A DNA stretch of 24,305 nt from IMG/VR virus record IMGVR_UViG_3300032053_008583, positions 1-24,305 of that record; one strand, 5' to 3'. The stretch is from a virus. A program made the translations under genes and the position numbers. Under the pieces are notes generated by a model. It did no database searches. It was not told the origin of the DNA and worked only from the letters and a program-made list of their open reading frames with translations. Of this stretch, positions 1,813 to 23,660 are shown piece after piece; the first letter of the stretch is position 1; every line of letters begins with the position of its first letter.

Positions 1813-2473
1813 CATAGACTATGACCAGCTTCAGATTCTTGCCGATTTGAAGCTCACCAAGGCAGAGATGTCCAGAAGGCTCGGGGTCGGACGTCCGGCC
1901 ATAACAAAGGCCATCAGAAAGCTCAAGGGATATGCTACGAGAGTTGTGGCGCTTGAAAAGGCCAAGGAATACGGAGTGATTCAGTTCAACGTGATGCAGG
2001 ATCATCTGGATGACCTGAAATATTTAAAGGAGATCTTAGATCCTGTACACCGATATAACATGGGAGACAAAGAAGGTTTCATAGCGATGCAGAGAAAGAT
2101 CGAGTCTCAGTCAGCGGAAGGGGAGCCCGACCAGGAAGGGAAAAGAAAACAGAAATTGAACCGGGGCAGAAAGATCAAGAGAGAGCAGAAGATTGAGACC
2201 TTCGATTTTACCATGGATCCCCGGCTCCTTGAGACAAGGATTATTGAGGTGAGACTGAAATGCAGAGATTTTATCCTTGAAGCCTGGAAGACTGTTGCAA
2301 GCAAGGAAGAGGTTGAAGCCTTCAGGGAGACGTTCATAGAGACGCTCAGGGAGGTGAACTCCGAGATGAAGTGCCCGAACTGTGGGCATATATGGGAGAC
2401 CGATGCGGCAGAAAGATTCGTCGACAGGCTTAGATCGAAACGAATTATCAGACCAGACATTATCCTACATTGA
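1790..2473 (+). CDS. Putative terminase small subunit (HTH DNA-binding protein)
   Basis: A 227-residue protein directly upstream of and overlapping terL, the normal place for the small terminase subunit, which recognises phage DNA for packaging. Residues about 10-46 form a helix-turn-helix (DYDQLQILADLKLTKAEMSRRLGVGRPAITKAIRKL, quoted in part: TKAEMSRRLGVGRPAITKA). A long charged central region follows (QEGKRKQKLNRGRKIKRE), then a helical part. A CPNCGHIW pair lies near the C-terminus. Two in-frame ATGs, 1790 and 1802, each have AGGAAAC upstream, so the start is uncertain by four codons. The last ~70 nt overlap terL in another frame, suggesting translational coupling. Assignment rests on position plus the HTH, since small subunits are poorly conserved. 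Confidence 0.6.
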   Translation: MRKQMRKHIDYDQLQILADLKLTKAEMSRRLGVGRPAITKAIRKLKGYATRVVALEKAKEYGVIQFNVMQDHLDDLKYLKEILDPVHRYNMGDKEGFIAMQRKIESQSAEGEPDQEGKRKQKLNRGRKIKREQKIETFDFTMDPRLLETRIIEVRLKCRDFILEAWKTVASKEEVEAFRETFIETLREVNSEMKCPNCGHIWETDAAERFVDRLRSKRIIRPDIILH

Positions 2474-4595
2474 GGATAGGCTGAACCTGAAGAGGAAAAG
2501 GGCGTTCAACTTTAAGATTGACCTGCCGGTCCCTTTCCCTAAGCAGGCATTTGCCATCGAGCATCTCAAGAAAAGGAATGTCTTCAAGGTCGGGAGAAGG
2601 GGCGGGAAGACCGTCCTTGTCTCGATCATAGCGGGGAATAAATTTAGGGAAAAGAGAAGGATTCTTTATGCTGCCCCTACCACTGAGCAGCTTGACAGGT
2701 TCTGGACCACGGTCACAAGGGCCCTTGCGAAGCCAATAGAACAAGGGGTTCTGTACAAGAACGAGACACTCCATTTGATCGAGATCCCTGGGACGGAATA
2801 TCGGATTAAGGCAAAGACTGCCTGGAATGCAGATACTTTGCGTGGAGACTATTCGGATCTTCTCATCCTCGATGAGTGGCAGTTGATGAACGAGGATGCC
2901 TGGGAGTTTGTGGGTGCACCGATGCTTCTTGATAACGATGGGGATGCGATTTTTCTATTCACGCCGCCATCCCTCCACAGCCGGTCGGTGAGCAAAGCCA
3001 AGGATCTTCAGCACGCATCGAAGATGTATGAGAAATACAGAAATGATGAAACCGGAAGGTGGGCCACGTTTCACTGGACCTCTCACGATAATCCAACCCT
3101 GAGTAATAAGGCTTTATTGGATATCACAAAAGACATGACTTCTATCGCCTATAACATAGAGATCATGGCCCAGGATATAGACCAGGCCCCTGGTGCGCTT
3201 TGGAAAAAGGAAGATATAGAACACAACCGGGTATTTAAGGCCCCTGAATTGTCGAGGATAGTCGTAGGGGTTGATCCTTCGACGACAAGCGGAGGGGACG
3301 AGGCCGGGATAATAACGGCAGGAAGGGGAGGGGAGGACGGGTACGTTTTATCGGATGATAGTATCCAGGGGAGTCCCTTGGTTTGGGCGACTGCGGCGGT
3401 CACCGCGTTCCACAAGTTCAAGGCGGATCGGATAGTTGCTGAGTGTGTACCCATTGATAGTGAGGCCCTAACAAAGGAAGGATGGAAGCCTCCAGTAGAT
3501 CTTCGTGTTGGAGACCACATATTAGGCTATGATTTAAGCACGGACACATGTAAGTGGACTAAAATAATTGCCTTAAATTTTGGTTATGATGAAGTCATTA
3601 CTTATGGCAATTCAAGTTTTCATGTGCGATGCACTCGGAACCACAAATGGCCGATGAGAATTGAGAGCCGTGCGGGAAGAGCCAAGTATGGCAAGCGTTT
3701 GAAATGTAGTAAGAAAACTCAAGGCATGTTTACTATTGATGAAATGCTGAGAAGTTGGCGGCGTGCAAGAATGATTCAATGTGTTCCAGCGGATATAGGT
3801 AGTGGCATTGTTATAGCTAAATTTACTGATTGGATAGATCGTAACAATGCGGTTCGTAAGGTTTTGCAAATGAGCAGACAACAAAGAATTGGCTTTATCT
3901 ATGGAATGCTTCTCGGCGAAGGCACGCTTACGAAATGTGGGGGCGTACAGTTCAGTCAAAATCCAGGAGCAATAAATGATGCGTTTCTTCTTGCCTGTTT
4001 CCTTGAAGGGGTCCCTGCGAGTCATTGCCGAATTAATAGAAAGAAATGGAACGGAGAAGATCGTATTAGTTATCGAACATGGCTTCACAGATCACGTACA
4101 CTCCTTATAGAAAAGGTTCAAGAACTAAGGAGTAAGTCAGAAGAGGTTTGGTGTCCCACGACCCAACTTGAGACATGGGTAATGAGACAAGATGAGAGGA
4201 TCACAATCACGGGCAATTCAAATAATGGCGGGGAGATGGTGGAACTCACGATCAAACAGGTCGATCATTCCATTCCCGTCAAACTTGTCCATGCATCCAG
4301 AGGAAAATTTACGAGGGCCGAGCCCATAGCGGCCAACTATGAGAAGGGAAGGGTTCATCATGTCGGAAAATTCGATGCACTTGAGCGGGAGCAATGCCTA
4401 TGGATTCCGGGCGATCCGTCTCCGAATCGCATGGATGCCGCAGTTTGGGCCCTGACTGAACTTTTACTGAGGGCAACCCCGGGATTTGGTTTTGCGGGAA
4501 GATCCTATGAGCGGGAAACCAAAGTGGAGGAGAAGAAACAACCTTCCCGGAATATACGAGATCGGTTCATAGACAGATTTGATAGGGGGGATTGA
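2403..4595 (+). CDS. terL: Terminase large subunit (ATPase-nuclease) with intein
   Basis: The DNA-packaging motor ATPase and headful/cos nuclease. From ATG 2403 the precursor is 730 residues: a 472-residue extein, typical for TerL, plus a 258-residue intein. The ATPase has Walker A GRRGGKT (64-70), Walker B LLILDE (153-158) and the coupling motif FTPPS (186-190). The RNase-H-fold nuclease acids are D291 (VVGVDPSTT), E347 (RIVAE) and D678 (NRMDAAVWAL). The intein starts immediately after E347, and the post-intein SNNGGEMV completes the usual AE-NNGG motif. GTG 2382 is an alternative start, but ATG 2403 has GGGAG at 2394-2398. It overlaps terS upstream and the next gene by one base (TGATG). Packaging depends on protein splicing if the intein is active. 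Confidence 0.92.
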   Translation: MRQKDSSTGLDRNELSDQTLSYIEDRLNLKRKRAFNFKIDLPVPFPKQAFAIEHLKKRNVFKVGRRGGKTVLVSIIAGNKFREKRRILYAAPTTEQLDRFWTTVTRALAKPIEQGVLYKNETLHLIEIPGTEYRIKAKTAWNADTLRGDYSDLLILDEWQLMNEDAWEFVGAPMLLDNDGDAIFLFTPPSLHSRSVSKAKDLQHASKMYEKYRNDETGRWATFHWTSHDNPTLSNKALLDITKDMTSIAYNIEIMAQDIDQAPGALWKKEDIEHNRVFKAPELSRIVVGVDPSTTSGGDEAGIITAGRGGEDGYVLSDDSIQGSPLVWATAAVTAFHKFKADRIVAECVPIDSEALTKEGWKPPVDLRVGDHILGYDLSTDTCKWTKIIALNFGYDEVITYGNSSFHVRCTRNHKWPMRIESRAGRAKYGKRLKCSKKTQGMFTIDEMLRSWRRARMIQCVPADIGSGIVIAKFTDWIDRNNAVRKVLQMSRQQRIGFIYGMLLGEGTLTKCGGVQFSQNPGAINDAFLLACFLEGVPASHCRINRKKWNGEDRISYRTWLHRSRTLLIEKVQELRSKSEEVWCPTTQLETWVMRQDERITITGNSNNGGEMVELTIKQVDHSIPVKLVHASRGKFTRAEPIAANYEKGRVHHVGKFDALEREQCLWIPGDPSPNRMDAAVWALTELLLRATPGFGFAGRSYERETKVEEKKQPSRNIRDRFIDRFDRGD
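3444..4217 (+). mobile_element. LAGLIDADG intein inside TerL
   Basis: In-frame insertion of 258 codons. The N-terminal splice block begins with Cys1 and reads DSEALTKEGW...VDLRVGDHILGYD, a clear Hint block A. Block B is CTRNHKW with the T-x-x-H pair. The centre contains GFIYGMLLGEGTL, a LAGLIDADG-type helix, so a homing endonuclease is or was present; I see only one such motif with confidence. The C-terminal block is ITITGN followed by Ser+1, with Gly instead of His at the penultimate position. The insert is visibly more AT-rich than the flanking terL DNA, as expected for a horizontally moved element. Boundaries are set by Cys1 at 3444 and Asn at 4215-4217. Confidence 0.9.
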
Positions 4596-6152: not shown

Positions 6153-8348
6153 ATGGGATTCTTCGAATCATTACAGAGCAAGCAGAAAGAGGAAGGGCCA
6201 AGGATCCCGATAGTCAGTTCCTTCTACACGGCCCCACAGGCGATAGCGGCGGAGAAGCCGTACTATGCCCTTGTCCAGGCTTATAAGTCATGGGTATACA
6301 CGGTGATCGACAAGATCGCCAAGTCCGTGGCGATGGTTCCCCTCAATCTCTATATTTACAGAAATCTAAGTACAGGCAAGAAGACAACGAACCTTCAGTG
6401 GAGGGCCGAGTACAAATCCATAGAGACAGAGCGGGAAAGAAAATATTTTCTCAAAGAGATGGGCCTTAAAAAAGAGCAGATTTTCGACCACCCCTTCCTT
6501 ACCCTGATCCATCATCCCAATTCGCTGATGACTCGCTTTATGCTTTGGTATGAGACAATGGTACGATTGGAACTCGGAGGGCTTTGCGGATGGCTTCAGG
6601 TGAAAAACAAGATAGGTATCCCTTCAGAGATCTGGCCGCTTCCCTTGACCCAATTTGCGATGCTCCGCCCGAAAGTTACCCCATCGCTAAGGCTCCAATA
6701 CTGGGATTATCAGGATGGGAGTGTCAATCAGAGGTTTGAACCGGATGAGATTCTTCTCTACAAATATCCTCATCCTGCTTCTCCCTTTCAGGCCATGTCA
6801 CCACTAATGGCCCAGACCTACCCATACGACATCGACCTCTTTCTGATGCAGCAGCAGAGGGCATTATACAAAAACATGGGCATTCCCGGGATCACCCTTG
6901 AGACTGACGCCGAATTGGGCAAGGAACAGTTCAGGGAGATACGCGAGCAGTTGATCGAGGAGTACGGAAGCGCGATGCAAGCCGGTGTTCCGATGATCCT
7001 CCATTCGGGTCTCAGGCAGGGGAAGGCCATGGCGATGACTGGCCGGGAGTCGCTGCTAAACGATGTGCAACAATTCGTAAGGGAAAAACTAATCACGGCA
7101 TATGATCTTTCCCCATCGAAGATTGGCCTCCACGAGAAGGATAATCGGGCGACTGCCGAGGTTATGGATCAAACATTTATCAATGAGTGCCTCAAGCCCA
7201 AGTGTATGCTCATAGAGGAGGTCATCGAGACTTTCGCCCTACCCCAATATGATGAGGGGATTACATGCGACTTTGACCTGCCGTCCTATCCTGACAGGGA
7301 ATTTTTGTTGAAGGAGCGGGAGACGAATCTTAGGATTGGATACCATACAATCAACAAGGAATTGGAGATAAATGGTGAGCCGCCGGTTCCATGGGGTGAT
7401 AAGCCATGGCTTCCATTCGGTTTGATGCAGCCGGGCGGGGAATCTCCGCAACCCCCAGCGGGAAAAGAAGCCAAGTTCTTAAAGCTGATGAACCGTTCCT
7501 TCTGGACGGAGGAACGCAAGGATGTCTATTGGAAACTTTTCGTCAAGCGGGTAGACAACTACCAGCACCTGATCGAGATGCCGATGAGGGAGTATTTCTC
7601 GGCTATGAAGGAGGACGTTATCAACCGGCTTCACAAGGATGGAGGTAAGATCCTGGCCTATTTCTCCGGCTGGTCAAGGCAAAAGGTGCAGCATGCCGTA
7701 AAGGACCATAAGGGGATAAGGGACATAAACGTAAACAAGGCCGAGGAGAAGAAGAATCTAGTTAAGATGGTCGAACCGATTGTGAAAAACATCATGCAGG
7801 AGGTCGGCAAGCACCGGATGAAGGATATTTTGGAGACCATGAAGGCCGTTAACCCTACCTTTGATGTGAATGCTCCAGGGGCTATAAAGTGGCTCGGTAG
7901 CCGGATGAGGCAGTTCTCCGAGCAGGTATCGGGAACAACCTTCGACGAGATCGAGAGGATACTCAAGGAGGGATTTGCCGCCGAGTCCCCCGTGACGGAA
8001 ATAGCCGAGACTCTGAGGCAGAAGTTTGATTCATGGGAGGAGTACAGGGCTTCCATGATCGCACGAACAGAGACGTTAGCGGCCATGAACCAGGCGGACA
8101 TCGAAGGAGTACGGCAGACCGGTCTTGAGGATGAGCTTCTAAAGCACTGGCTTTCGGCAAGGGACGAGCATGTCAGGCCGACCCACCAAGCAGCCGATCA
8201 AGAATATGCTGATGGAATTCCGATGGATGAGCTCTTCAAGGTAGGTAATGATGAGATGGATGCGCCGCTTGAGGGGACTGACCCAGCAGAAAATATACAA
8301 TGCCGATGTACACTTTATTATTCTCAAACCGAAGGTGGAGGAGAATAA
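6153..8348 (+). CDS. Portal protein fused to MuF-type head morphogenesis domain
   Basis: A 731-residue virion protein. Residues about 30-410 look like an HK97-family portal: KSWVYTVIDKIAKSVAMVPLN near the N-terminus, HHPNSLM and LPSYPDREFLLKERE further on. The portal forms the ring at the unique capsid vertex through which DNA passes. The C-terminal part (about 470-731) carries an SPP1 gp7/MuF-like domain: ARTETLAAMNQA, HWLSARDEHVRPTHQAADQ and the terminal NIQCRC motif. These are usually separate genes, so this is a fusion. ATG 6153 is supported by GGGAGGG at 6141-6147. The gene lies immediately behind an intrinsic terminator. The order terL-portal-MuF-protease-capsid is the standard head cassette. 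Confidence 0.88.
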   Translation: MGFFESLQSKQKEEGPRIPIVSSFYTAPQAIAAEKPYYALVQAYKSWVYTVIDKIAKSVAMVPLNLYIYRNLSTGKKTTNLQWRAEYKSIETERERKYFLKEMGLKKEQIFDHPFLTLIHHPNSLMTRFMLWYETMVRLELGGLCGWLQVKNKIGIPSEIWPLPLTQFAMLRPKVTPSLRLQYWDYQDGSVNQRFEPDEILLYKYPHPASPFQAMSPLMAQTYPYDIDLFLMQQQRALYKNMGIPGITLETDAELGKEQFREIREQLIEEYGSAMQAGVPMILHSGLRQGKAMAMTGRESLLNDVQQFVREKLITAYDLSPSKIGLHEKDNRATAEVMDQTFINECLKPKCMLIEEVIETFALPQYDEGITCDFDLPSYPDREFLLKERETNLRIGYHTINKELEINGEPPVPWGDKPWLPFGLMQPGGESPQPPAGKEAKFLKLMNRSFWTEERKDVYWKLFVKRVDNYQHLIEMPMREYFSAMKEDVINRLHKDGGKILAYFSGWSRQKVQHAVKDHKGIRDINVNKAEEKKNLVKMVEPIVKNIMQEVGKHRMKDILETMKAVNPTFDVNAPGAIKWLGSRMRQFSEQVSGTTFDEIERILKEGFAAESPVTEIAETLRQKFDSWEEYRASMIARTETLAAMNQADIEGVRQTGLEDELLKHWLSARDEHVRPTHQAADQEYADGIPMDELFKVGNDEMDAPLEGTDPAENIQCRCTLYYSQTEGGGE

Positions 8349-8366
8349 ACAGGGGAGGATAACACC

Positions 8367-8411
8367 ATGAAGATGGAGCATAAGACGTTTGCGGCAGAGG
8401 TCGGGGAGTGA
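8367..8411 (+). pseudogene. Vestigial 5' end of the original prohead-protease gene
   Basis: ATG 8367, with AGGGGAGG at 8351-8358, opens 14 codons (MKMEHKTFAAEVGE) that end at TGA 8409-8411. The protease gene begins at 9290 with a similar N-terminus (MKIEHKIFTAEVKE), 10 of 14 residues identical but only 29 of 42 bases. I read this as the original start of the protease gene, cut off when the HNH endonuclease arrived with its own replacement copy. Its stop overlaps the HNH GTG (GTGA), so it may now act as a leader that couples HNH translation to the portal transcript. Confidence 0.7.
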
Positions 8412-9280
8412 GGAGGATAGAGCATCAGATTATTGAGGGAGTTGAGAAGAAAAACTGTCCGAGATGCAAAAGATGGAAGTCTTTGGAGTGTTTTGGAAAA
8501 TCTAAAAATGAGCGAGATGGCCTCGTTGATATATGCAAGATGTGTAGATATAAAACTCTCCGAACAAGCCAAATCAATGTTAGTCAAAGAAAATGGCATA
8601 TCATAGGCGATGGGATTGAGTTTAAACATTGTTGGAGATGCAGAAGATGGTTGCCCTTGACTTATTTCCATAATAATTCAGCCTCATGGGACAAACTAAA
8701 TAAGACTTGCAAAATATGTATGGCTGAAACTCAGCGTGAAAGGAATAAGAGAAATCCAGAAAAGAAAAAGGCATTAACTCAAAAATGGAGAAACGAAAAT
8801 CGTAAAAGGAGTAATGAACTTGCAAGAAAATATTATTACGAGAAACCTGAAGTGATGAGGGAAAGATCGAGTAAGTGGGCAAAGAACAATAGAGAGAAAA
8901 TTTCATTCCATAGAAATATCAGACGATATGAAGACTCAAAGCTTAGGCTTAATCACTCGATGAGTCAGGGGATATATGCTGCTATCAAAAATCACAAAAA
9001 CGGTAGGCATTGGGAATCTCTGGTCGGATATACCTTGATCGATTTAATGAAATCTCTTGAGAAGCAATTCGATTCAGAAATGACATGGGAAAATTATGGG
9101 CAATGGACAATCGATCACAAAATTCCTATTGCAGCATTTAATTTTGAGAAACCAGAACAGATCGATTTCAAAAGATGCTGGGTCTTATCTAATCTTCAAC
9201 CAATGTGGAAGACAGAGAATTCATCTAAAAATTCTAAATTATCAAAACCCTTTCAGCCTGCCTTGAGAATAGCAGCATGA
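8408..9280 (+). CDS. HNH homing endonuclease
   Basis: A 290-residue protein. Two repeated zinc-binding modules come first: C17/C20 with C43/C46, then C75/C78 with C101/C104. A long basic linker follows (residues 105-180), then an HNH core with WTIDHKIPI (DH at 236-237) and CWVLSNLQPMWKTENSSKN (N262, N271). This is the usual layout of phage free-standing HNH endonucleases, which cut a cognate site and spread by repair. Start GTG 8408 overlaps the vestigial protease ORF (GTGA); AGAGG at 8396-8400 can serve as ribosome-binding site. It is markedly AT-rich and interrupts the head cassette between portal and protease. The sequence TGAGGAGGA occurs at both edges (8409-8417 and 9278-9286). Confidence 0.85.
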   Translation: MRRIEHQIIEGVEKKNCPRCKRWKSLECFGKSKNERDGLVDICKMCRYKTLRTSQINVSQRKWHIIGDGIEFKHCWRCRRWLPLTYFHNNSASWDKLNKTCKICMAETQRERNKRNPEKKKALTQKWRNENRKRSNELARKYYYEKPEVMRERSSKWAKNNREKISFHRNIRRYEDSKLRLNHSMSQGIYAAIKNHKNGRHWESLVGYTLIDLMKSLEKQFDSEMTWENYGQWTIDHKIPIAAFNFEKPEQIDFKRCWVLSNLQPMWKTENSSKNSKLSKPFQPALRIAA

Positions 9281-9289
9281 GGAGGAAAT

Positions 9290-11269
9290 ATGAAAATCGA
9301 ACATAAAATATTTACAGCAGAGGTTAAAGAATTCAGCGACGAAGGCTTATGGATAGAACACTTCATTTCAACAGAAAGACTTGATCGAGGCTCAGACATT
9401 ATGCGTGTTGACGGAATGAAAATCCTGGGGCGTCCAGTTGTTCTAATGGCTCATGGATTTTCAAATATGGGACAGGAGCCGATTGCAAAGCCTTTGAAAA
9501 TTTGGAAGTCGGAATTCAACGGTTTTAAGGGCGTTATGGCACGGACACAATTCTTTGACGGATCAAATTTAATTCCTCCAGATAATACGGGTAGAAGACT
9601 TTATGAAAAAGCCAAAAATGGTTTTATGCCGAATTGGTCAATTGGGTATATCCCCTTAAAATGCGCATTCGGAAATAAGGATGGCATCGAATATCGTGAA
9701 GTTTTGGAATGGGATCTTCTTGAGTGGAGTCCTGTGGGTGTGAGCATGAACCCCGACTGCCAGAACGTAGAGAAGTGCGGTAACTGCCAGAAAGAGGCGT
9801 GGTTCAAGATACTGCCAGAGAAGTTCGATAAGAGAGAGTTCAAAAGCTACAAATCGGTTGACGGCAAGTCTCTCTTGGATGATCAGAACGACCGGAAAGC
9901 TTTAGAAGAGAAGCTGGGAGATCTCTGCCAGTATAAGGATGGTCAGCTTGTCGACACGGAAGAGAAGCCTTATCCCAACGAGCACGCCTGTAGGATCACA
10001 GATCCCAAGAAATATGATCGAATAAGAAGGAACAACGACAAGTTTGGCAAGGGTATCCATGCTCTTTGGGGGATCAAGGAGGGTGATCCTGTCGAGTTAC
10101 AGGCCATACGATTCTCAAAAAGCAAGTTCACGGCGAAGGAGGCCCGCCAGTGGTGCAACGATCACGAGTACAAATGCAAGCCGTTTGAGCCTGCTTCTGA
10201 GAAATGCGGGGAGTGCGGGCAGGAGATGGCTGTGAAATGGGATGAGGATGTGTCTGGGGAGAATGAGGGGAAGACGTGCGACCCGAATTTTGAGTTTTCA
10301 TTCGTTTGCTCAATCTGCGAGAAGAGAGACGAAGTGATTTGTCAGGGCTGCAAAAACCTTGTGAAATACAACGATATATCGGAAGCGGGAATGGGATATA
10401 TCAAATGTCCAAGTTGTGGAAAATTCATCGATCAAACAGGAAAGGTTTTGGATCAAAAGGCCATCCGTAGCGACCAAGCCGAATCGGTCAAGTTCGTCAT
10501 AGTGGATGGGGACCAGGTCAGGGAGAAAAACAATGTAGATTTTACTATGGGCGGTAACCACTACGCCTGGGACTTCATACCGGAAGATGAGATTTGGGTT
10601 GAACAAGACATGGATGAGACGAATACCATTGCGACCAAGCTTCATGAGTTTACCGAAAGGCTCATCATGAAATATCTTGGCTGGGACTATAACAATGCCC
10701 ATGAGGTGGCCTCCAAACCGGAGCGTCTGCTCCGGCATATCATGATGGCAGAGAGCGATGAGGCATGGGCCGAGGACGGAGGAGGAAATGGCGGGGATGG
10801 AGAAGGGGATTATGGAGAAGAATATGATTCCTTCATTATAGGCTTTTTGACGGGCAACGAAAAGATTCTTAAACGGATCAATGATGCCCGCCAGAAGAAA
10901 GGATTGAAATCAATCGAACCAAAAAAGAAGGATGCCACGGAGGACATGAAAGTCTTCATGGATTTCATAAAAACAATGGGGGAGAAGTTCGAATCGATGG
11001 AAGCGAAGCTTGACGGCCTTGCGGCCAAACTTCAGGAGGGTTCAAAAGTTTCTATAGGCGAACCGGCGCCAGAAGACAAGAAGGACGAATCCAAGACAGA
11101 TAACCCGCCGGAACCGAGAAAGATCACTGTAATCACGGAGGAAGAAAAGAGAGCGGCTATCAAGGAAGCCCTGAAGGGCATCTCCGATCAGATAACTGAG
11201 GCGATCAATAAGGTCGTCCCGGCTGTTGTAAAAAGTGAATTTGACCGATTGAGGGGGAAAATTTCGTAA
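9290..11269 (+). CDS. HK97-type prohead protease with long C-terminal extension
   Basis: A 659-residue protein. The N-terminal ~155 residues match a prohead (U35-type) protease: H55 in VVLMAHGF, S117 in MPNWSIGY, and LLEWSPVGVSMNPDC. It should process the head scaffold and capsid N-termini. The extension carries Cys clusters (C157/C163/C166; CGECG and CPSCG pairs), a segment typical of phage XkdF/protease C-terminal regions (PYPNEHACRITDP...FTAKEARQWCNDH, about 225-300), and a terminal acidic/coiled part (MEAKLDGLAAKLQEG and beyond) that could be scaffold. AGGAGG at 9280-9285 supports ATG 9290. The first ~440 nt are clearly AT-rich with different codon choice, then composition switches near 9720. 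It looks like a hybrid gene whose 5' end came in with the HNH gene. Confidence 0.82.
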   Translation: MKIEHKIFTAEVKEFSDEGLWIEHFISTERLDRGSDIMRVDGMKILGRPVVLMAHGFSNMGQEPIAKPLKIWKSEFNGFKGVMARTQFFDGSNLIPPDNTGRRLYEKAKNGFMPNWSIGYIPLKCAFGNKDGIEYREVLEWDLLEWSPVGVSMNPDCQNVEKCGNCQKEAWFKILPEKFDKREFKSYKSVDGKSLLDDQNDRKALEEKLGDLCQYKDGQLVDTEEKPYPNEHACRITDPKKYDRIRRNNDKFGKGIHALWGIKEGDPVELQAIRFSKSKFTAKEARQWCNDHEYKCKPFEPASEKCGECGQEMAVKWDEDVSGENEGKTCDPNFEFSFVCSICEKRDEVICQGCKNLVKYNDISEAGMGYIKCPSCGKFIDQTGKVLDQKAIRSDQAESVKFVIVDGDQVREKNNVDFTMGGNHYAWDFIPEDEIWVEQDMDETNTIATKLHEFTERLIMKYLGWDYNNAHEVASKPERLLRHIMMAESDEAWAEDGGGNGGDGEGDYGEEYDSFIIGFLTGNEKILKRINDARQKKGLKSIEPKKKDATEDMKVFMDFIKTMGEKFESMEAKLDGLAAKLQEGSKVSIGEPAPEDKKDESKTDNPPEPRKITVITEEEKRAAIKEALKGISDQITEAINKVVPAVVKSEFDRLRGKIS

Positions 11270-11607: not shown

Positions 11608-12921
11608 ATGGATCTTCAGATAAACGAAAAGGATGGGAAGATGGTGCTGAACACCGAGGCCCTTGAGGCGGCCATACGGGAAGGCACCGTAAATACGGTC
11701 AAGGACCAAGTAAAGGAGCTTGTTAAATCTGAAACGAAGGCGATCTTCGACAACAGCGACGGACGGATCATGGACAAAGAAGGAAAGTCGGTCATCGATA
11801 CCGGCTTCTTCAACAAGACCTATTCCTCCGGCAGAAGGGGCGTCATGGACGGAGCGGCATTGGGAGACTACCTGGGCTCCAACGGAGGGCCTTTTCTGAG
11901 GCTTTCACCTATCATGGAGAAGTTCGCCAATCTGGTGAGAAAGCGGTTCGATCCGAGAAGTCTTCTTGTCAGCGGCTTCAATCTCAGCGAGTGGAACAAG
12001 GAGATTGTGGATTGGAACAAGAAGGGGGCGCTTTCCGGCACACTTGTAGAGGGTGATGTCGGCGCCATCGTTCCAATAGAGTTTCTTGCCACGGTCATCG
12101 AGTTTGCCATAGAGCAGAGCAAGATTCTTCCCAAGCTCTGGAGGATACCGATGGGGGCCTACCAGACCAGGATTCCATATCTTTCTCAGGCGGCGGGTAG
12201 CTATTTTGGTGGGATTCTGCTGAAGCACCCCGATGAGGCCTACGAGAAGGAAAGCACCAAGCCGACCTTCAGCTATAAAACCTTTGAAGCCAAGAAGCTG
12301 ATCGGCTTGATTCCGATTTCAGATGAATTGGTGATGGACAGTTCGATCAACATCATCAACTACCTGACCGGCCTTTTCACAAGGGCCTTTCAGTATGCAA
12401 CCGAGGGCGAGGTCGTCGCGGGCACCGGGGCTTCCGGGCAGATGCTCGGGATCATCAGTGATCCGGCGATCAACGCAGTCAAGAGAATAACACTCAACAC
12501 CGTCAAGAGAGACGACATCATCAATCTCGAATCGGCCCTTGACGAGAATTTCCAGGACATCAACTATTTGACCCGAAGGGCAACTCTTAACGTCCTGCGT
12601 AAGGAAAAGACGACCACGGGGGCTCCGATTTATTACGACACCACGGAGTCGGGACTTCAGCCCGGGATGGGGCCTCAGTTGAACGGATATCCGGTCATCA
12701 GGACTCGGAACGTTCCGGCAATAGGCAATAAGGGCGATGTGGTTTGCGGGGAGCTCGGATACTACATCTGGGCGATCCGGCAGGACATGACCATAGACAT
12801 GAGCTCCGAGCGTTACTTCGAGTATGACGTGAAGGCGATCCGCTTTGTGGTGCGGCAGGACGGCGCGCCTGGTGTGTCCATAGCCTTCTCCATACTCAGC
12901 AACATTCCGGAGACCTCATAG
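11608..12921 (+). CDS. Major capsid protein, HK97 fold
   Basis: A 437-residue protein. Residues about 1-50 are charged and helical (EALEAAIREGTVNTVKDQVKELVKSE, in part), like the scaffolding delta domain that the protease removes. The rest reads as an HK97-type capsid: VEGDVGAIVPIEFLATVIEFA, KLWRIPMGAYQTRIPYL, SYKTFEAKKLIGLIPISDEL, the loop GEVVAGTGASGQMLGI, and a C-terminal ERYFEYDVKAIRFVVRQDGA strand region. AAGGAGG about 8 nt upstream of ATG 11608 is the strongest ribosome-binding site in the window, fitting a highly expressed gene. It stands alone between a terminator upstream and a TnpB element downstream. No head-tail connector or tail gene follows in the window. Confidence 0.9.
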   Translation: MDLQINEKDGKMVLNTEALEAAIREGTVNTVKDQVKELVKSETKAIFDNSDGRIMDKEGKSVIDTGFFNKTYSSGRRGVMDGAALGDYLGSNGGPFLRLSPIMEKFANLVRKRFDPRSLLVSGFNLSEWNKEIVDWNKKGALSGTLVEGDVGAIVPIEFLATVIEFAIEQSKILPKLWRIPMGAYQTRIPYLSQAAGSYFGGILLKHPDEAYEKESTKPTFSYKTFEAKKLIGLIPISDELVMDSSINIINYLTGLFTRAFQYATEGEVVAGTGASGQMLGIISDPAINAVKRITLNTVKRDDIINLESALDENFQDINYLTRRATLNVLRKEKTTTGAPIYYDTTESGLQPGMGPQLNGYPVIRTRNVPAIGNKGDVVCGELGYYIWAIRQDMTIDMSSERYFEYDVKAIRFVVRQDGAPGVSIAFSILSNIPETS

Positions 12922-13044: not shown

Positions 13045-13150
13045 GTAAACTACCTCGCCGCAAGCGGACGAGGCATTGCAGTTCCAAGAGAAAGAGATTT
13101 TAGAGATTCAGAGTGGACTGCGATAGGCAAGTTTACGATTGCCCTTTGAG
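13029..13150 (-). ncRNA. Probable right-end (omega/re) guide RNA of the TnpB element
   Basis: TnpB elements make an RNA that overlaps the 3' end of tnpB and the right end and continues into flanking DNA, which becomes the guide. Here the hairpin at 13053-13073 and the end at 13045 fit this, read on the minus strand. The guide would be the 16 nt or so just below 13045, beginning CGTTTTCTC on the minus strand. The 5' limit is a guess; only the 3' scaffold end is supported by the repeat at 22030-22072. Confidence 0.4.
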
Positions 13151-14171
13151 AAATATTGATAGCGCCATTGAGGTCGGCATGACAAGAAAAATCACAACAT
13201 TGGCAGACGAACTCGGATTGAGACTTACGATTGCTTCTCGAAATATGACCGCATTCAGAGCATGTCTTAGAAGTATTCCTTGGATTAACAAAAATCACAG
13301 GTATCCCTGCCAGTTGTGCCTTGTAAGAGATAAATTTTCCGAGTTCATCGAAGCTCCATTTTCCAAAAATCTCTCGTTGCTCTTTTCTAACCGTTTGTCT
13401 ACCGTTAAACCCCTTAAGATTTTCAAGAGCAATCCCACGGTTTGTGTCTTTAGCAATCGAAACAATTTTTTTGGAAATGGTGTGATTGGTGTGCTTCTTG
13501 AAGCGTCTCTCCTTTCCAGAAAGCTTCTTGAGATGTCTTTTGGCAGATTTGGAGCCCCTTTTCTGCAAGGCCTTTTTGATCTTGGTCATTTTCTTGCGGA
13601 CAGTATCAACCCCTTTGCCGGAGAAAACCTCTCCGTCGGAAGTGGTTGCAAGGTTGATGATGCCAAAATCAACACCTATAAATCCTTCAATATCTTTAAT
13701 TTCATCTTCAGGAACCTCCACGGTCTGAAACAGATAGAACTTTCCTTTCCTGTGAATAAGATCGGCTTCGCCTTTCACGTAAGGCAGATATTTGGAGTTA
13801 TGACAAACAAAGAGAATCTTCAACCTTCCACCAACAGACCAGATGGAGACCGACTCTTCTTTGTACGAGAGGATACGAACATCATAGGTGATTGCTCCAA
13901 GAGGCTTAAAAACTCTTTTGGTTTTCTTGTCCAGTTTGTAGGCATCAACAACTTTAGAAATACAACGGACAACCATCTGAGCAGAGAGATCGGAAGAATC
14001 CTTGATGTCTCGATAGACAAGATGGTGAAGCCGATATTGGTTAAACTCTTTCTTTTCCAAAGCCACGTCGGAAATCTTATTGCAGGCAGCGTTGCTGTCC
14101 TTCATGGTCTGCAAAATAGACTTGCCCTGTTCTTTGGTCGGGAGAAGTTTAATTTGAAGGGTCAATTTCAT
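13050..14171 (-). CDS. tnpB: TnpB RNA-guided nuclease
   Basis: A 373-residue protein, full length for TnpB, which uses a right-end RNA to cut DNA next to a short TAM and keeps the element in place. The RuvC residues are all present: D168 (FIGVDFG), E250 (GIALENLKG) and D333 (CHADLNGAINI). The zinc ribbon is CSECG (C304/C307) plus CQCC (C323/C326). The N-terminus MKLTLQIKLLPTKEQ is typical, so the start at 14171 is sound. The C-terminal ~20 codons run through the end hairpin. It lies antisense to the phage operon and has its own promoter with almost no 5' leader. The frame is intact, so an active nuclease is likely. A long frame on the opposite strand is a shadow. Confidence 0.92.
   Translation of the reverse strand: MKLTLQIKLLPTKEQGKSILQTMKDSNAACNKISDVALEKKEFNQYRLHHLVYRDIKDSSDLSAQMVVRCISKVVDAYKLDKKTKRVFKPLGAITYDVRILSYKEESVSIWSVGGRLKILFVCHNSKYLPYVKGEADLIHRKGKFYLFQTVEVPEDEIKDIEGFIGVDFGIINLATTSDGEVFSGKGVDTVRKKMTKIKKALQKRGSKSAKRHLKKLSGKERRFKKHTNHTISKKIVSIAKDTNRGIALENLKGFNGRQTVRKEQREIFGKWSFDELGKFISYKAQLAGIPVIFVNPRNTSKTCSECGHISRSNRKSQSEFVCQCCDFSCHADLNGAINISQRAIVNLPIAVHSESLKSLSLGTAMPRPLAAR
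13053..13073 (-). repeat. Right-end hairpin of the TnpB element
   Basis: CCTCG-CCGC-AA-GCGG-A-CGAGG: a 5-bp and a 4-bp stem with one bulged A, read on either strand. It overlaps the last codons of tnpB. The same structure with one base changed recurs at 22038-22058. Confidence 0.8.
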
Positions 14172-22958: not shown

Positions 22959-23660
22959 CTATTTTTCAATAGAGAATTCATTTGCTTCTGCGGAAAATCC
23001 ACATTGAGGGCAGCGGATTTTATGATTTCCGAAAACTATGGTGTTTGAATGTTTATGAAGAGAGGTGAGTTCCAAATTTTCAAGACGATTGTCGTCTTTA
23101 ATCCCGTTTTTATGGTGCACAATCTCTCCCCTTTTGAGTGGGCGGCCAAGATGTTTGGCCATGATGAGACGATGCTCAAGAACAGAAAGGTTATAACATG
23201 AATCTTTCATTTTTTCAGCAATTGCTCGATCTTCAGGAGATAATCCAGAGATGGCAAGCACTATATATCCCCGTTTTACTTTCCATCTGCCTTGCCAGTT
23301 TTTTCTTTCAGGTCCTCTCTTATGAGTTGCGGCTAATCCTTTTCTTTTGCATTCTTTTGAGCAGTATTTTTTATCTGTGGGCCGATCTATTGAAAAAAGC
23401 TTCCCACAAATTATGCAAATTTTCTTCATGGGATATTTTCTTTCTAAAGGATGAAGAGTCTTATAGGTTTTATAGCATTCCCATGAACAAAAAAGTTTTG
23501 AATTTCTTTTTATCAATTTTCCACAAATTAGACAATTCAATTCTTTATTTTTTTTCATGCCCAAATGTGCACAAGAAACAGAGCAGTATTTTGCTGTTTG
23601 TGTTCTATAAGGCAATACAGAAAAAAGTTCACCACAAATTATACATTTTTTTGAAGGCAT
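22959..23660 (-). CDS. HNH endonuclease with repeated Cys motifs, antisense to the operon
   Basis: A 233-residue protein. Three repeats of a CxxCG...F...CSxxC zinc motif lie at C6/C9/C26/C30, C43/C46/C58/C62 and C82/C85/C100/C104. An HNH_3-type nuclease core follows, [38 protein letters not shown] (H163, H182-H183, N185, N191; quoted in parts [16 protein letters not shown]), and a final Cys pair C217/C220. The start at 23660 has AAAGGAGA and its own promoter (23696-23724). It is AT-rich and runs against the phage operon, between the GT17 and GT9 genes, so it looks like an independent mobile insertion. A long frame on the opposite strand (23198-23677) is a shadow. Confidence 0.88.

Follow-up and report, generated by a model that had tools for sequence, protein, structure and literature searches.

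A phage prohead protease gene with its native start left upstream of an HNH endonuclease gene and a divergent catalytic domain at its restart

The window, meaning the whole 24,305-nucleotide stretch that was analysed, comes from a 24.3-kb IMG/VR virus record (IMGVR_UViG_3300032053_008583), and its head operon has the order TerL, portal-MuF, HNH, protease, major capsid protein. The features of the region from the portal to the capsid gene are as follows.

6153..8348, + strand: portal protein fused to a Mu F-like domain, the upstream gene (Pfam Phage_portal 1.5e-39, Phage_Mu_F 5.5e-12)
8349..8366, + strand: native protease leader with a strong Shine-Dalgarno sequence, GGGGAGG (8352-8358), which now drives the stub (from the sequence)
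8367..8411, + strand: stub, native protease codons 1-14 plus TGA, encoding MKMEHKTFAAEVGE (start profile; HNH-bearing alleles only)
8408..8411, + strand: GTGA overlap, bases common to the HNH start and the stub stop (from the sequence)
8408..9280, + strand: HNH / endonuclease VII-like nuclease gene, 290 aa, GTG start at 8408 (PHROG 1035 endonuclease VII, 1.4e-27; composition)
9113..9220, + strand: HNH-type motif DH...N...N, residues D236, H237, N262 and N271 (invariant columns of HNH alignment A2)
9281..9289, + strand: new Shine-Dalgarno sequence of the restarted protease, GGAGGAAAT (from the sequence)
9290..9737, + strand: replacement N-terminal catalytic domain, protease codons 1 to about 150, ATG at 9290 (third-position GC step; comparison with allele B)
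9738..11269, + strand: resident remainder of the protease gene (DNA near-identical between alleles A and B except for a patch at about 10264-10383)
11608..12921, + strand: major capsid protein, as context (Pfam Phage_capsid 3e-37)

The junction seen in the window is present in contigs of at least seven metagenomes, so misassembly is unlikely. The assignment of the inserted gene to the nucleases rests on its PHROG 1035 match and on the four residues of its motif, which are invariant in A2. The gene is optional at this locus, as the portal-protease junction occurs without it in L013-L020, L029, L031, L032 and other relatives. Sequence searches with the HNH and N-domain alignments returned no useful solved relatives, and an AlphaFold model of the HNH protein, with its nuclease half below 50 pLDDT, was left unused. 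The downstream gene was assigned to the HK97-type prohead proteases (S78) from a match to PHROG 80, head maturation protease (3.6e-11, residues 2-157), and from the order portal-protease-capsid; its Pfam S78 match lies below the cut-off (18 vs 21 bits). The invariant residues H55 and S117, presumably the S78 catalytic pair, fall inside the replaced segment. Among cultured phages there was no close relative of this protease, only one weak match at 27%.

Other mobile genes and cargo were found in the window and its relatives. TerL (2382-4595) contains an apparent intein of 258 aa (3444-4217, + strand), running from CVPIDSEALT to ITITGN and followed by SNNGGEMV; the gene is uninterrupted at this site in L028, L029, L032 and L113, and L022, L024, L025 and L092 carry the identical insert. 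A TnpB-like IS605 OrfB protein with a Cas12f1-like zinc domain is encoded between the capsid and later genes (13050-14171, - strand), and a second nuclease gene, of the HNH_3 type (22959-23660, - strand) and unrelated to the first, raises the number of kinds of mobile or selfish genes in this virus to at least four. The gap between portal and protease is an insertion hotspot whose cargo differs among relatives (L003:1243-3219, L031:7403-9403, L011, L029), including a laminin-G/lectin-domain protein in L003 and a weak beta-propeller match in L031. Between 14255 and 22931 lies a long run of ORFs that, by reading of their translations only, resemble glycosyltransferases, methyltransferases and acetyltransferases, which is unusual for a phage head operon contig.

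The stub (8367-8411) is a native remnant inside the split host gene: it is the start of the native prohead-protease gene, severed from the rest. Its peptide, MKMEHKTFAAEVGE, shares 10/14 residues, and its DNA 29/42 bases, with the protease start, MKIEHKIFTAEVKE, while the best other 14-codon frame among 29,765 other open frames on both strands reaches no more than 5/14 against the protease N-terminus. The first-pass annotation had noticed this resemblance between the frames at 8367 and 9290, and its coordinates, frames and counts proved exact, as did its observation that the stub stop falls on the HNH GTG in the GTGA overlap. A native-start profile built from 28 N-termini of HNH-less relatives only ranked 9290 (39.7 bits) and 8367 (26.3 bits) above all others of the window's 1,549 start codons, the third reaching 12.5 bits against a background of -10 +/- 5. 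The leader at 8349..8366, AATAAACA...GGAGG...ATGAAGAT, is similar to that of the HNH-less L031, and the stub has a third-position G+C of 79%.

In HNH-less relatives the stub-like peptide is itself the protease start and reads straight on (L013, MKIEHKIFEAEVKAF; L029, MEKEYKVFEAEVKES; L031, MKIPKLERKVFSAEVKEF), and direct native-style starts into the protease were also found in L032, L085 and others. These direct starts, which the first-pass annotation had proposed to look for, back its reading that an HNH insertion left the old protease start and supplied a new one. A scan of 50 protease loci, up to 3.5 kb upstream, found the stub in every intact HNH-bearing allele, namely the window's allele A, A' (L007), B and the distant L154, and a separate stub in 0/44 HNH-less relatives, some of them near-copies of one another; the contrary case named in advance, an HNH-less relative carrying the short ORF, was thus not seen among the 44. 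The reading frame of the stub is preserved in all variants, including the 13-codon form in L007, recognised by alignment, in which a 3-base deletion keeps the frame. This conservation, together with the strong Shine-Dalgarno sequence, might suggest an independent small gene or a regulatory leader peptide unrelated to the HNH gene, but we regard that as very improbable, since all 44 HNH-less relatives lack a separate ORF and have the same peptide as the start of their protease. As the severed native start, the stub may now act as a leader.

Judged by its composition and divergence, the catalytic domain in its entirety (codons 1 to about 150, 9290 to about 9737) is foreign to the rest of the gene: it is a divergent copy fused in frame to the resident protease gene. 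Third-position GC is 36% over codons 1-150 vs about 60% (59-64%) afterwards, and the HNH gene is likewise AT-rich, at 37% GC. The strongest changepoint falls at codon 144 in the window and codon 165 in L154, steps unlikely by permutation; in allele B it lies earlier, at codon 41, with an N-domain average of 42% vs 64% after. No such step was seen at that place in the HNH-less relatives tested. The first-pass annotation had proposed that the endonuclease entered with a recoded copy of its flanking gene. The copy was confirmed and is larger than had been recognised, reaching about 450 bp into the protease gene, beyond the start alone, to include the whole catalytic domain of about 150 codons; in place of recoded, a divergent domain from another phage is the better description, because the protein sequence differs as well.

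Allele B (L008, L011) shares the backbone and stub site of the window but has an HNH protein 46% identical to the window's and another N-domain. The DNA of A and B is about 61% identical over 9290-9737 and 97% identical beyond, and the right border of the divergence is sharp, at 9737, GGTGTGAGCATGAACCCC. Synonymous difference (pS) is 0.82, which is saturated, in the N-domain vs 0.074 after the border, and nonsynonymous difference 0.28 vs 0.018, indicating two separate N-domains of long standing whose protein sequences are under constraint. A second divergent patch (about 70% identity) was observed at 10264-10383 in the otherwise near-identical C-terminal part of the protease. A purely local origin, in which insertion gave rise to a second copy of the protease's own 5' end, much as in a target-site duplication, and the copies then drifted with nothing foreign involved, would fit the clear homology of stub and restart. 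It is nonetheless improbable, as the compositional shift spans about 150 codons rather than 14, A and B are saturated across the N-domain yet share the DNA downstream, and native-like composition is found in the stub and not in the restart.

Exchange between alleles on one backbone is also apparent. The window and L007 are identical from about 8460 across most of the HNH gene and N-domain, 31/39 of their differences lying between 7900 and about 8460, and A and B share the opening ~50 bases of the HNH gene. The left exchange point therefore falls at the HNH start and the right one where the protease domain ends, and the HNH gene and N-domain appear to have been exchanged together. The flank that would have been co-transferred is bordered by 9737 on the right and by the first ~50 bp of the HNH gene on the left; such borders fit co-transfer, but recombination alone could give them. 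In L012, a 3,455-bp deletion took the stub and most of HNH-B and left the replacement domain in frame, though this is a single contig in which misassembly is possible. Because the domain was kept in frame after the deletion, the replacement copy of the protease is probably the working one, and the deletion could represent a later fate of the cassette.

A distant parallel, L154, was found on a 76-kb contig in a survey of protease relatives. Its protease is 45-50% identical to the window's, and the locus consists of an 18-codon stub, MKIERKVFAAEVKEFDEG, an ATGA overlap where A, A' and B have GTGA, a 349-aa HNH protein whose C-terminal domain resembles that of the window HNH, and then a restarted protease whose GC step lies close to the motif at which it is seen in the window. 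The insertion locus is the same across A, B and L154, the HNH gene following protease codon 14, 14 and 18, respectively. Among 102 HNH domains placed in a tree, those from the three protease loci form one group (SH-aLRT 90), and the window HNH is nearer to that of L154 than to that of B, against the backbone relationship, a pattern that horizontal spread to a single locus would be expected to give. No such grouping unites the N-domains of A/B with that of L154, so over long distances the N-domain is not fixed cargo of the HNH gene. The domain partner appears to change with time, which would be expected were each transfer to copy its flank from the most recent donor.

These comparisons bear on the possibility that ordinary recombination swapped the catalytic domain together with a neighbouring HNH gene as a passenger, the stub being the left recombination scar. 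Such passive mosaicism would be in keeping with the other exchanges on the backbone, including the patch at about 10264-10383 and the variable portal-protease cargo, but we consider it unlikely because stub, HNH gene and replaced N-domain recur in two distant phages and three alleles, because the HNH tree holds a locus-specific group, and because the stub is strictly linked to the HNH gene.

In a test of 125 HNH loci, each was scored for a peptide ahead of the HNH gene that resembles the start of the gene after it, and the only convincing, well-placed matches were at protease loci. Two further candidates were rejected: L227 was a chance match, and L178 proved to be a terminase split by an HNH gene. 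In the latter (L178:3710-4546) a nuclease of the same family splits the large-terminase gene with no duplicated coding sequence. The HNH gene's own start (RIEHQI) was considered as a third copy of the protease start and left as chance, its spacing and frame being a misfit.

HNH genes are frequent in group I introns, and the window has an apparent intein in TerL, which together raise the idea that the HNH gene belongs to a self-splicing intron or an intein, the stub then being the first exon. We give this almost no credence: no recognisable group I intron was found around the HNH ORF by Rfam at E<=0.5 in the window, L154, L008 or L031, and the protease has a complete start of its own, such that splicing the stub on would duplicate codons 1-14.

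We consider it highly likely that, in this phage lineage, a homing-type HNH gene inserted within the prohead-protease gene, bringing a divergent N-terminal catalytic domain from another phage. The gene would have entered within the protease gene and not beside it, and the divergent N-domain would have been fused to the resident gene where the domain ends, at the conserved G-V-x-M-N-P-D motif; codons 15 to about 150 of the resident gene would have been lost, its leader and first 14 codons staying as a short ORF. Most likely the cleavage site of the HNH protein lies within codons 15-150 of the native protease gene, and repair templated by an HNH-bearing phage would bring in the HNH gene and the donor's divergent N-domain, which the enzyme would no longer recognise, sparing its own copy. 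Because the relic start retains the ribosome-binding site of the native gene and the stub stop shares bases with the HNH start, low-level re-initiation by stop-start coupling would be the simplest route to HNH translation. An allele with native codons 15-150 on this backbone (a phage more than 95% identical) was not found in two DNA-pattern scans of IMG/VR. The scan with the stub pattern matched HNH-bearing contigs only, and that with the downstream border matched HNH-bearing contigs, the L012 deletion, the 61% relative L031, and L252 and L253 (contigs of >190 kb, left out).

Several known systems are similar in part. Mobile endonuclease ORFs with a foreign carboxy-terminus have been described in fungal mitochondria, in atp6 of Allomyces macrogynus and in atp6, atp9, cox2 and nad3 of Glomus sp. 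(PMC3630166). As here, an endonuclease lies inside an essential gene with a divergent replacement of the severed part and a native remnant persists; the hybrid is the working gene, as is probably the case in the window too. There the 3' end is replaced and the remnant lies downstream, whereas in the phage the catalytic domain at the 5' end is replaced, in a mirror-image layout with an amino-terminal rather than carboxy-terminal replacement, and the remnant lies upstream as a possible translated leader; the enzyme is an HNH nuclease in a phage rather than a LAGLIDADG or GIY-YIG protein (PMC3630166). Free-standing phage homing endonucleases such as T4 SegF, SegG and the mob genes co-convert their flanks (PMC2988022), and Skunavirus HNH genes track their insertion site (PMC12724721). 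The window shares with these an optional nuclease by a conserved essential gene and exchange of the flank, but they lie between genes, whereas the HNH gene here lies within its predicted cleavage target and has left a severed start (PMC2988022, PMC12724721). Homing endonucleases of ICP1 and other phages occur near essential structural genes and at the borders of exchanged DNA, as does the window's nuclease; the account covers islands bounded by such genes and split or spliced genes, and no mention of start codons, recoding or prohead protease was found in it (PMC10448857). The best PHROG match of the window nuclease, annotated endonuclease VII, recalls F-CphI and the endonuclease VII-motif homing enzymes, but F-CphI is defined by a DHDH/CX2C pattern where the window protein has the HNH-type DH...N...N (PMC6083498). 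Replacement of a 3' end is thus already known from mitochondrial genes, and the 5' phage version would follow the same logic with the layout reversed (PMC3630166). We found no description in open-access papers of a 5' counterpart, or of a phage case of a severed start with a replacement 5' half, although this does not prove that none exists.

Selfish endonuclease genes in essential genes are normally tolerated only with an intron or intein. The solution suggested by this locus is that the invader brings the severed half along, which would be one way into essential genes without killing the carrier. More tentatively, and with slightly less than even confidence, we propose a class of phage homing endonuclease genes that invades essential genes with an immune 5'-half replacement including the active site, the severed start being reused as a leader through which translation of the nuclease is coupled to the structural operon; invasion of this kind, when repeated, may be an engine of protease-domain swapping between phages. 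Several steps are preserved side by side at this locus, including the relic start, a pair of rival cassettes carried by the same backbone, an allele with a deletion and a parallel case in a distant phage, and they allow a direct test of what homing endonucleases contribute to domain exchange.
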